A stretch of DNA of 35,096 nt, taken from Erysipelatoclostridium sp. An173. GTDB taxonomy: Bacteria > Bacillota_I > Bacilli_A > Erysipelotrichales > Coprobacillaceae. A program made the position numbers and the translations under genes. The notes under the pieces were generated by a model. The model saw nothing but the letters and a program-made list of their open reading frames with translations, had not been told where the DNA came from and did no database searches. The stretch lies in assembly GCF_002160495.1 (NCBI RefSeq), contig NZ_NFKR01000027.1, positions 1 to 35,096 on the forward strand, written 5' to 3'. This document shows, piece after piece, positions 4,645 through 15,257 of the stretch; position 1 is the stretch's first letter, and each line of letters begins with the position of its first letter.

Positions 4645-4681
4645 TTATTAAAATATGTTAGAATTACTAGCGGTGATAAAT

Positions 4682-6535
4682 ATGTTGATAGAATGTTCGA
4701 ATATAAAAAAATCTTTTCAAGGAATACCATTATTAAAAGATATTACATTTAAAGTTGATAATCATGATAAAATTGCTATTATTGGGGTCAATGGCGCTGG
4801 TAAAACTACTATTTTAAAAATAATAGCTGGTGAAGAAGAATATGATGGCGGTAATCTTTTTAGTAACAAAGATTTAACTTTAGGGTATTTAAAACAACAG
4901 CATGATTTAGATATCAACAGTACTGTTTATCAAAGTGCTTTGGATGTTTTTAAACCTTTAATGGTAATTGAAGAGCGATTAAGAGAGTTAGAAGCAATAA
5001 TGGCTGATAACCACAGTAAACAGATTTTAGAAGAATATGACCGTTTAATGCAACAATTTAATGATCAAAACGGTTATAGTTATCCAAGTAAGGTCACTGG
5101 TGTTTTAAAAGGATTAGGATTTAGTGAAGATGAATTTGATGATCCAGTTAAAATACTATCTGGTGGTCAAAAAACGCGACTAGCTTTAGCGAAAATATTG
5201 TTACAAGAGCCAAAGCTGTTATTATTAGATGAACCAACTAACCATTTAGATAATAGTGCAATTACTTTTTTAGAAAACTATTTAAAAAGTTATCCTAATG
5301 CAATTGTCGTTGTTAGTCACGACCGTTATTTTATTGATCAGATTTCTAATAAAATCGTTGAAATTGAAAATGGTAAAGCAAAAACATATAAATGTAAATA
5401 TGATGAATATTCATCATTAAAAAAACAACAACGAGCTATTGATTTAAAACACTATATTAATCAACAGCGAGAAATCAAACGGATTCAAGAAAGTATTGAT
5501 ACTTTAAAATCATATAATCGTGAAAAACAAGTTAAACGAGCTGAATCTAAAGAAAAACAATTAGCTAAGATGGAATTAATTGAAAAACCAGAAAACTTAC
5601 CAGATACAATTACTATTAATTTTAAACCTAAACGTGAATCTGGTTTTGATGTCTTGAAAATAGAAGATTTAGCAGTAAGATTTGAAGAACCATTATTTCA
5701 AAACATCAATATTGATATCAAAAAACAAGAACGAGTAGCCTTAATTGGTGATAATGGGATTGGAAAAACAACATTGTTTAAAACAATATTAAATCAAATT
5801 ATCCCCTACCAGGGAAAAATTAAATTTGGTAGTAAAGTAGATGTAGCTTATTATGATCAAGAACATAGTACCTTATCTTTAAATAAAACTATTTTTGATG
5901 AAATTAGTGATAATTTCCCAAATATGACCAACACTGAAATTAGAAACAGTTTAGCGTTATTTAATTTTAAAGGTGAAGATGTTTTTAAAGAAATATCTTT
6001 ATTATCAGGTGGTGAAAAAAGCCGTGTTGTTTTAACTAGCATTTTATTGAAACAAGCAAACTTTTTAATTCTCGATGAACCAACCAACCATCTAGATATT
6101 GCTTCAAAAGAGGTACTTGAAGATGCTTTAAATCAATTTGAAGGAACAATCTTCTTTATTAGCCATGACCGCTATTTTATAAATAAAGTAGCTACTAGGG
6201 TTATTGAACTTACTAATAATAAAGCAATTAGTTATGATGGTAATTATGATTTATATATCAGTCATAAAATAGCCATAAAACCAGTAAAAAAAGAAAATAC
6301 TGATTATCTCAATATGAAACAGCAAAATGCTATGTATCGTAAACAGCAAAATAAAATAAAAAAAGTAGAAAATCAAATTTCTACTTTAGAACAACAAATC
6401 AATGATCTTACTAATGAATTACATAGCGACGAAGTTGTTAACGATTATCAAAAATATAATCAGATTAGTGATCAAATAACTGATCTAGAAAACCAGTTAA
6501 ATGATTTATTAGAACAATGGGAAGCCCTTCAATAA
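4682..6535 (+). CDS. ABC-F family ATPase (ribosome-associated type)
   Basis: A 617-residue soluble protein with two ATP-binding cassettes and no membrane segment. Walker A motifs are GVNGAGKTT (about 35) and GDNGIGKTT (second half); signatures are LSGGQKTRLAL and LSGGEKSRVVL; each is followed by a Walker B ending DEPTNHLD. The arm/linker between the cassettes is rich in Lys, Gln and Glu, and the C-terminal ~80 residues form a predicted coiled coil. This is the YdiF/YfmR-like layout of proteins acting at the ribosomal E site. It could support translation or confer antibiotic tolerance; sequence alone does not decide. I use the ATG at 4682, which has GGTGAT upstream, instead of the earlier in-frame ATG at 4655, which has no ribosome binding site. 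Confidence 0.92.
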   Translation: MLIECSNIKKSFQGIPLLKDITFKVDNHDKIAIIGVNGAGKTTILKIIAGEEEYDGGNLFSNKDLTLGYLKQQHDLDINSTVYQSALDVFKPLMVIEERLRELEAIMADNHSKQILEEYDRLMQQFNDQNGYSYPSKVTGVLKGLGFSEDEFDDPVKILSGGQKTRLALAKILLQEPKLLLLDEPTNHLDNSAITFLENYLKSYPNAIVVVSHDRYFIDQISNKIVEIENGKAKTYKCKYDEYSSLKKQQRAIDLKHYINQQREIKRIQESIDTLKSYNREKQVKRAESKEKQLAKMELIEKPENLPDTITINFKPKRESGFDVLKIEDLAVRFEEPLFQNINIDIKKQERVALIGDNGIGKTTLFKTILNQIIPYQGKIKFGSKVDVAYYDQEHSTLSLNKTIFDEISDNFPNMTNTEIRNSLALFNFKGEDVFKEISLLSGGEKSRVVLTSILLKQANFLILDEPTNHLDIASKEVLEDALNQFEGTIFFISHDRYFINKVATRVIELTNNKAISYDGNYDLYISHKIAIKPVKKENTDYLNMKQQNAMYRKQQNKIKKVENQISTLEQQINDLTNELHSDEVVNDYQKYNQISDQITDLENQLNDLLEQWEALQ

Positions 6536-7179: not shown

Positions 7180-8622
<1,443 letters not shown>

Positions 8623-8627
8623 TTATT

Positions 8628-8657
8628 AAGAGATGATTTGTATCATCTCTTTTTTTA
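8628..8657 (+). terminator. Terminator after GH1 copy 1
   Basis: AAGAGATGAT (8628-8637), loop TTGT and ATCATCTCTT (8642-8651) are followed by a run of T. Confidence 0.9.
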
Positions 8658-8660
8658 TCC

Positions 8661-8691
8661 TTGACTTATAGTTTACTTTAAGATGTATGAT
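8661..8691 (+). promoter_or_regulatory. Candidate promoter of the MATE gene
   Basis: TTGACT (8661-8666) and TATGAT (8686-8691) are separated by 19 bp, which is long. An AAAGGGGG ribosome binding site precedes the ATG at 8717. Confidence 0.4.
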
Positions 8692-8716
8692 AAATTTACA
8701 CTAAAGGGGGAATTTA

Positions 8717-11606
<2,890 letters not shown>

Positions 11607-11608
11607 AC

Positions 11609-13108
<1,500 letters not shown>

Positions 13109-13153: not shown

Positions 13154-14059
13154 TTACTTTACATATTTAGTAATAAAATTAACTAATGTGCTTTTAAATT
13201 CATCAGTTTCTTTTAAATCATATAAATAACGTTCTTCTTTTAAAACAAATAATGCTTTACTACCACGATTAGCATTATATAAAGGATATACCATCTTTAA
13301 TGGTACAAAATCATCATCTTTCATATGAATATATAATGTTGGAATATCATTATGTTTAACTAATTCCACGTAATCTTCTTTAATATCAATCTTAATTTGT
13401 TTTCTTATTTTACGTTTAATTAAATTAACCGTTGGAAATTTAGGAACTTTATAGTCTTTAATTAAGCGATATCCTAAAATATCATAAACACTTGTATAAG
13501 CTCCATCGCTAATTATTGCTTTAACATTTTTTAATGAATGTTCACTAGCAGCCTTTAAAATCGTATTAGCACCAGTTTCTTTTCCATATAATACAATTTT
13601 ATGATCTTTCCCAAATGTTTTTAAGATAAATCGATTCCAGCAAACTAAATCACGAACATCTTTAATACCAAAACCACGAATATAACCATCACTTTGTCCA
13701 TGTCCACAAGCATCGACTAATAATATATTCCAATCTGGATAGCGTTCTTTAAAATATGGAACATACATTGTCATATCTTTAGCTTCCAAAGCAAAAGGAT
13801 GTAATATCATTAAGGTAACTTCAGCATTTGGTTCTTCTAATAAAATTCCTCTTAATCGTATTCCTTGGCGATTTTTTAAATAAACATTTTTACTTGCATA
13901 TTTGGTTTCTAAAATACTTGGTTTATCATCTTCTTTATGATGACGATAAGCCATTGCTTTAACCATCTTATTTGCAAAAGCATTTACAGCACTAACACTA
14001 CTGGCAATTCCAGCAACTAATGCAAATGATGCAACAACTCTTTTTTGATTTTTATACAT
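13154..14059 (-). CDS. Alpha/beta-hydrolase-fold protein, probable pseudoenzyme
   Basis: A 301-residue protein. Residues 7-30 are hydrophobic (a signal peptide or anchor, with AFA-N at 27-30 as a possible cleavage site), followed by an alpha/beta-hydrolase core. The fold landmarks are LMILHPF, VDACGHGQSDG and YIHMKDDDFVP. In family members the nucleophile elbow is G-x-S-x-G; here it reads GKETG (159-163), placing Glu161 at the Ser position. The usual C-terminal GH-x-x-S/Y motif is replaced by KEERYLYD, so the catalytic His is also gone; the acid Asp (about 250) remains. It is probably not a serine hydrolase. The ATG at 14059 (GGAGG upstream) overlaps the preceding gene by 8 bp. Confidence 0.8.
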   Translation of the reverse strand: MYKNQKRVVASFALVAGIASSVSAVNAFANKMVKAMAYRHHKEDDKPSILETKYASKNVYLKNRQGIRLRGILLEEPNAEVTLMILHPFALEAKDMTMYVPYFKERYPDWNILLVDACGHGQSDGYIRGFGIKDVRDLVCWNRFILKTFGKDHKIVLYGKETGANTILKAASEHSLKNVKAIISDGAYTSVYDILGYRLIKDYKVPKFPTVNLIKRKIRKQIKIDIKEDYVELVKHNDIPTLYIHMKDDDFVPLKMVYPLYNANRGSKALFVLKEERYLYDLKETDEFKSTLVNFITKYVK

Positions 14060-15257
14060 GTTTACCTCCATACTCCTTATAATTTTCCATTAATAATCTA
14101 TTTATATTACATACTTGTTCAAAAGAACTTAATCGATATTCATCATGCTCCATTCTTCCAGCATAGAAACGGATTGCAGTTTCCAGATTTTCCCGAATAA
14201 TTTCTTTATATTCTGGTGGAAAAGTTGATATTGGAAAACATACGAATACGAATGTATTATAATCTTTAGAAAATAAATTAATTAATAAATCATATCCTTC
14301 GCTTTGAACAATTGAATTACCTATTGCTAATTGTAAATCATGATTAGCAAAAGTAAGCATATCATTCATTACAAAACGAATTACATCCATGGACGCATTT
14401 TGATAACCTTCAATATCATTTTCAAAAATAGCTTTTAGATATGGAATAACAATATTACTTGTTTTCCCTTCTTCATGAATTCGATTATCGATATAATTAA
14501 AAATTGCTTTTGTAATTCGATAATGAGAAAGAACCAGATTACCAAAATCGGTCATGATTGCAAAAGCAAATCGTTGTGAATTACACAAACGCCATATTGC
14601 ATCTAATAACGGCTCTTTAACTGTGTTATAAAAACCATCTAAATGTTTAAATACATCTTTAATAATCAACCTAAAATAATATAAATGATATTGGTACTGG
14701 GTGTCTAAATACTTAGCTGTCATCCCATCCCATTCATATTCATAAAGTATTTTATCCAACAATAAACTGACTGAATCCATATATTTTTTATAATTACCAT
14801 TACTTAATAACCGATCTAAGTATGGCATGAAAAATTCATAAAACTCATCAACAGTTTCCTGGTTAGTACCTCGATGATATTCTAAGTAATCAAGAATATT
14901 TCGATAATCTAATGGTTCTAACATGCTATTAGTATTTTTACTATTAATATAATGTTGGAATACATGACAATGTAAAATTGTTTTATATTTATTAAAATAT
15001 AAAATCTGCTTTAAAGCATCTTTAGTAATATATTCTTGTTCCTGTTCGTGTAAATCTACAGAAAAAGTTGTTTTTACCTCATCACCAGAATAATCGACTG
15101 TTACAAAAACATTAATTTCACGAAATTGAATATCACGAATATAATAGTGAAACTTATGCTCAAATTTTTTAGTTTGAACACAACTATGACAACGGTATTT
15201 ACCCTGATAATTACTTTGATGTTCTTCTAAATACTTATGAATACATTCACGCGCCAT
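14052..15257 (-). CDS. Unrecognised 401-residue protein with N-terminal Cys/His cluster
   Basis: I recognise no family. The N-terminus carries C5, H7, C23 and C26 (a possible zinc-binding C-x-H...C-x-x-C), then a short strand-rich segment (about 33-80, with INVFVTVDYSGDEVKTTFSVD). A long region rich in Tyr, Leu and Phe (100-400) looks almost entirely helical, possibly repeat-like. No signal peptide or membrane segment is evident, so it is probably cytoplasmic. AGGAGGTG precedes the ATG at 15257; an upstream in-frame ATG at 15332 lies in the promoter region. It overlaps the hydrolase-fold gene downstream by 8 bp, implying coupled synthesis. Confidence 0.75.
   Translation of the reverse strand: MARECIHKYLEEHQSNYQGKYRCHSCVQTKKFEHKFHYYIRDIQFREINVFVTVDYSGDEVKTTFSVDLHEQEQEYITKDALKQILYFNKYKTILHCHVFQHYINSKNTNSMLEPLDYRNILDYLEYHRGTNQETVDEFYEFFMPYLDRLLSNGNYKKYMDSVSLLLDKILYEYEWDGMTAKYLDTQYQYHLYYFRLIIKDVFKHLDGFYNTVKEPLLDAIWRLCNSQRFAFAIMTDFGNLVLSHYRITKAIFNYIDNRIHEEGKTSNIVIPYLKAIFENDIEGYQNASMDVIRFVMNDMLTFANHDLQLAIGNSIVQSEGYDLLINLFSKDYNTFVFVCFPISTFPPEYKEIIRENLETAIRFYAGRMEHDEYRLSSFEQVCNINRLLMENYKEYGGKHV

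Follow-up and report, generated by a model that had tools for sequence, protein, structure and literature searches.

An ancient serine-less alpha/beta-hydrolase and an undescribed partner family encoded by an overlapping gene pair in Coprobacillaceae

In the 35,096-nucleotide stretch of Erysipelatoclostridium sp. An173 DNA analysed here (the window), a gene for an alpha/beta-hydrolase-like protein without a catalytic serine, which we call ABH, overlaps the gene of a 401-amino-acid protein of no recognised family, U401. The question raised by this locus is whether ABH is an enzyme recently damaged by mutation or a pseudoenzyme kept for another purpose, and what U401 has to do with it. The longest open reading frame of ABH occupies 13154-14071 on the minus strand and its first ATG, at 14071, would give a protein of 305 residues; the start is probably the second ATG, at 14059, because a GGAGG sequence lies directly 5' of it within the end of the U401 gene, which leaves a coding sequence of 301 amino acids at 13157..14059 (stop codon 13154-13156). 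U401 is encoded on the same strand at 14055..15257 (stop codon 14052-14054), and its ATG at 15257 is preceded by a ribosome-binding site of its own, AGGAGGTG. The two genes overlap, as the preliminary description had stated; the overlap is 8 nt long, from the ABH ATG at 14059 to the U401 stop at 14052, and the stop-start region with its nested ribosome-binding site reads ATGTATAA (14052..14072, minus strand).

Both the sequence profile and the core fold place ABH among the alpha/beta-hydrolases. Pfam Abhydrolase_1 matches it barely over threshold, at 26.6 bits (cut-off 25.8). The ABH family profile matches solved esterases in the PDB, with Pyrococcus furiosus esterase Pf2001 (5g59) at the top (E=1e-9), and the same structure is the best structural match of the predicted ABH model (Foldseek E 1e-6; VIA Z 11.9, rmsd 4.8, 226 aligned), which shows the helix-strand order typical of the fold and, at a pLDDT of 56, is reliable in the core only. 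The ABH and U401 models were each built from 7 sequences, which accounts for their low confidence. ABH and Pf2001 have the core alpha/beta-hydrolase domain in common, but the profile alignment puts the G-K-E-x-G elbow of ABH over the active G-F-S-M-G of Pf2001 (the GxSMG of solved esterases). In the window this nucleophile elbow is GKETG (residues 163-167; 13571..13585, minus strand), with Glu165 instead of Ser, and in the model it (Y-G163-K-E165-T-G167) is flanked by strand 158-163 and helix 166-176. The region of the catalytic His, KEERYLYD (residues 278-285; 13217..13240, minus strand), contains no His and carries Arg281 and Tyr282 in its place (K-E-E-R281-Y282-L-Y), so that ABH lacks both the Ser nucleophile and the catalytic His of an active serine hydrolase. 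What the preliminary description had listed as retained is indeed present, namely the fold, the catalytic Asp and a membrane anchor or signal. Asp253 follows strand 7 in the loop DDDFVP (residues 252-257; 13301..13318, minus strand), and an N-terminal hydrophobic helix (13943..14059, minus strand; helix 3-41 of the model, supported by hydropathy) ends at Tyr42-Arg43, both conserved at at least 90% among pair members. This helix is weak, with a 19-residue Kyte-Doolittle mean of 1.8, and the charges that flank it, examined for membrane topology, do not decide its orientation.

Comparison with relatives indicates that the loss of the serine is old. None of 36 aligned rows of ABH contains G-x-S-x-G, the residue at the nucleophile position being Glu, Gly or Asn; in a set of 20 pair-type sequences that covers 18 genera, this residue is Gly in 11, Glu in eight, Asn in one and Ser in none. 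Orthologues with an intact G-x-S-x-G, set beforehand as the finding that would speak for a recent inactivating mutation, are thus absent, and that possibility is ruled out. In contrast, 20 close paralogues drawn from Coprobacillaceae and its sister family all keep Ser, Asp and His. The serine loss is ancient and predates the divergence of the sampled genera. The other triad residues behave differently from Ser, since the same 20 pair-type sequences retain His in eight and Asp in 16, so His and Asp drift after the loss of Ser. The view that both Ser and His are lost therefore holds for the window's ABH, and family-wide for Ser but not for His. Similarly, the loss of Ser is fixed while the exact replacements are not. 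In the window's branch of the 36-row alignment the nucleophile position is always Glu, and position 281 is occupied alongside Glu165 by Arg, Lys or His, and in one case by Glu.

ABH also does not evolve as a dead gene. Among congeners dN/dS is 0.09-0.24 for ABH and 0.02-0.14 for U401, rough values given that synonymous sites are near saturation, and these ratios, which rule out that either is a pseudogene, point to purifying selection on both. The combination of a catalytic-residue loss fixed in orthologues with purifying selection is what the sequence of a pseudoenzyme should display. The best-conserved parts of ABH are the segments of its former active site (0.74 and 0.72; mean 0.58), but the same segments are conserved in the paralogues (0.71 and 0.73), so their retention in ABH may be a constraint of the fold. 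In one genome (L055, G029:C12:30839-31688) ABH is split into two overlapping frames, through either sequencing error or real inactivation.

Searches of U401 against Pfam, NCBIfam, PADLOC, PHROG and the PDB gave no significant match, and no common ancestry with ABH was found; the lack of a PADLOC match also removes membership of a defence system from consideration. As far as the libraries searched go, the sequence represents an undescribed protein family. Its predicted model (pLDDT 60) shows an N-terminal region of four beta strands and, after it, helical hairpins, which agrees with the earlier characterisation as an unrecognised, mostly helical protein. These hairpins are like those of generic alpha-solenoids (HEAT, PCI, TPR), with which U401 shares no sequence match in Pfam, and structural searches returned only generic matches, with scores that any helical repeat would be expected to give (best Foldseek E 0.04; best VIA Z 9.4, to unrelated solenoids), so a more specific fold was dropped. 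On this low-confidence model U401 is probably an alpha-solenoid, preceded at the N terminus by a small beta region. A hydropathy and signal check found neither a signal nor a transmembrane segment, and the protein looks cytoplasmic. The N-terminal C-x-H...C-x-x-C cluster first noticed in the window's protein (C5-x-H7...C23-x-x-C26) did not survive alignment, where it is unconserved outside the genus and close relatives: C26 becomes A, S, M or G outside the genus and C23 becomes Y or F further out. A zinc- or metal-binding cluster is thereby ruled out. The invariant residues of U401 instead include H128, Y172, W176, Y188, H191 and part of a C-terminal SFEQxxNIN motif.

The two genes are almost universally found together, contrary to the possibility, raised at the outset as a potential refutation, that they rarely co-occur. 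The window is part of a Thomasclavelia-like genome: among loci with names, those closest to it belong to Thomasclavelia, a genus that NCBI assigns to Coprobacillaceae, Erysipelotrichales. An order-wide search found U401 in 42 of 43 Coprobacillaceae genomes, the sole exception being a 69% complete assembly, and in none of 272 other genomes of the order. None was found in phages, plasmids or viral contigs, nor in class and phylum samples save for one chance match of 25 bits, in which the frame of a supposed distant homologue is DNA polymerase III alpha (DnaE). ABH lies directly downstream of U401 in 18 of the 19 genera carrying U401. In 17 of these 18 genera the ABH start codon overlaps or touches the U401 stop codon, usually as ATGA with AAGGAG within the last U401 codons, and a 15-nt gap separates them in the remaining one. 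The evolutionary distances of the two proteins correlate after TruA is removed (partial r 0.51, a mirror-tree value obtained without control pairs). A single genus was seen to lack the pair. In its 98% complete genome, G016, U401 is intact (L111:1-1900), a sequence resembling a terminator and the gene of an ABC-transporter ATPase come after it, and the only ABH-related hydrolase is an ordinary active-type paralogue. Since the U401 tree, with long branches, groups G016 with a pair carrier, G010, the simplest though not certain reading of the sequences is that ABH was lost secondarily. G016 also implies that U401 is not strictly dependent on ABH.

In most genera of both branches the pair has a third member. 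A GH1 gene (beta-glucosidase / 6-phospho-beta-glucosidase-like; in the window at 11639..13084, minus strand) lies directly 3' of ABH; its products are orthologues, 73-91% identical to that of the window, while other GH1 proteins are below 50%. Upstream of U401 the branches differ, with rpl17-ecfA-ecfA-ecfT-truA, mostly also a PHP phosphatase, in the window's branch and thrC-thrB-PHP-c4 in the other, where some 11 bp separate the end of c4 from U401; the window's branch carries c4 elsewhere, close to thrB. With an identity of only about 36%, the PHP genes found in the two settings are not necessarily orthologues. These arrangements are most simply explained if U401, ABH and GH1 relocated as one unit between two unrelated contexts, in a direction that we can only infer, and the GH1 neighbour hints, by its position only, at a link with glucoside metabolism. 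Several other features of these surroundings were noted. The product of c4 is an 80-amino-acid protein of no known family (L107:8729-8971; in the window's own genome G000:C38:13360-13593) that is nearly as family-restricted as U401, being found in 35 of 37 family genomes searched and in none of 23 from the sister family. In Thomasclavelia, a threonine-biosynthesis locus and the gene of an active-type hydrolase are close to c4. At L103 and L108, one from Thomasclavelia and one from another genus, a gene of about 740 amino acids stands between ABH and GH1. Elsewhere in the window, at 7183-11606, a MATE transporter gene (8717-10090) stands between two GH1 genes with similar products, all on the plus strand, and an ABC-F gene (4655-6535) lies beside this cluster.

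The gene pair probably serves in binding or scaffolding. The sequences give good support to the pairing of U401 with ABH and to the loss of serine catalysis. We consider it about an even call that the two proteins make up a functional unit specific to Coprobacillaceae, ABH being a true pseudoenzyme that uses its old active-site face as a binding surface. ABH resembles membrane-anchored serine alpha/beta-hydrolases (Abhydrolase_1 / Hydrolase_4, including the 20 paralogues) in its fold, N-terminal hydrophobic helix, HGxS(D/E)G loop, elbow position and Asp loop, but those paralogues keep GxSxG and His throughout whereas pair-type ABH never has the Ser. By sequence it groups with such enzymes; the loss of its Ser is older than the divergence of the sampled genera, and purifying selection has since maintained it as the gene that overlaps U401 on the downstream side. 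The helix may tether ABH to the membrane, the retained face (the HGxSDGYIRGFG loop and GKxxGAN elbow) may bind rather than react, U401 may read or use that binding, and the gene overlap may link the synthesis of the two proteins. A non-catalytic ABH acting jointly with U401, a physical complex between them and any ligand are all inferred. The main difficulty for joint action is topology, because ABH may be oriented either way and U401, without a signal or transmembrane segment, could not contact the ABH domain directly if that domain were extracytoplasmic. A more specific form, in which the empty site of a membrane-tethered receptor binds a ligand and signals its state to the solenoid family, with GH1 in the unit, is speculative and we think it rather unlikely.

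The main alternative, doubtful but deserving attention, is that ABH serves as an anchor or stability factor that recruits U401 to the membrane or assists its folding, with no small ligand involved. The strict gene order and preserved overlap, the lack of a membrane segment in U401 and the near-invariant Tyr42-Arg43 beside the ABH helix would all fit, but U401 stands alone in G016, and the fact that the former active-site loops are the best conserved would be left unexplained. It is less likely, and in our view improbable, that the genes are independent and merely co-inherited, with U401 functional, ABH a passenger in slow decay and the overlap a product of operon compactness; the slower evolution of U401, the absence of ABH from G016 and the split frames in G029 are consistent with this, but dN/dS well below 1, frames intact across 18 genera and the presence of the pair with GH1 in two unrelated contexts argue against it. 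Residual catalysis by Ser-independent chemistry, Glu-based or non-covalent, is similarly hard to credit. In its favour, many ABH proteins keep Asp or His, the pocket segments are highly conserved and Glu is invariable in the window's branch. Against it, the nucleophile position varies between Gly, Glu and Asn, of which Gly could not act as a nucleophile, the His position takes many residues, and the old triad leaves no residue that all members share.

For ABH as a pseudoenzyme with a binding role there are parallels. Pseudoenzymes with the alpha/beta-hydrolase fold have been described chiefly in eukaryotic signalling. Known examples such as the plant gibberellin receptor GID1 and the NDRG proteins, all eukaryotic, have broken triads and act in binding or scaffolding. 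ABH resembles them in its hydrolase fold and broken triad, a likeness of general description, and none of them is known to pair with a U401-like protein. A search of a literature library found no paper on the U401-ABH pair or on pseudo-hydrolases of Coprobacillaceae. Pseudo-hydrolases of this fold are known elsewhere, and the U401 family is, as far as these libraries reach, the undescribed part. As a bacterial pseudo-hydrolase whose serine was lost before 18 genera split, ABH would offer a clean case of an enzyme fold becoming a binding module. Together, U401 and ABH are two lineage-signature core genes, present in practically all members of this common family of gut bacteria. If the receptor reading were true, they would form a lineage-defining two-protein complex of Coprobacillaceae and a bacterial counterpart of the hydrolase-derived receptors.
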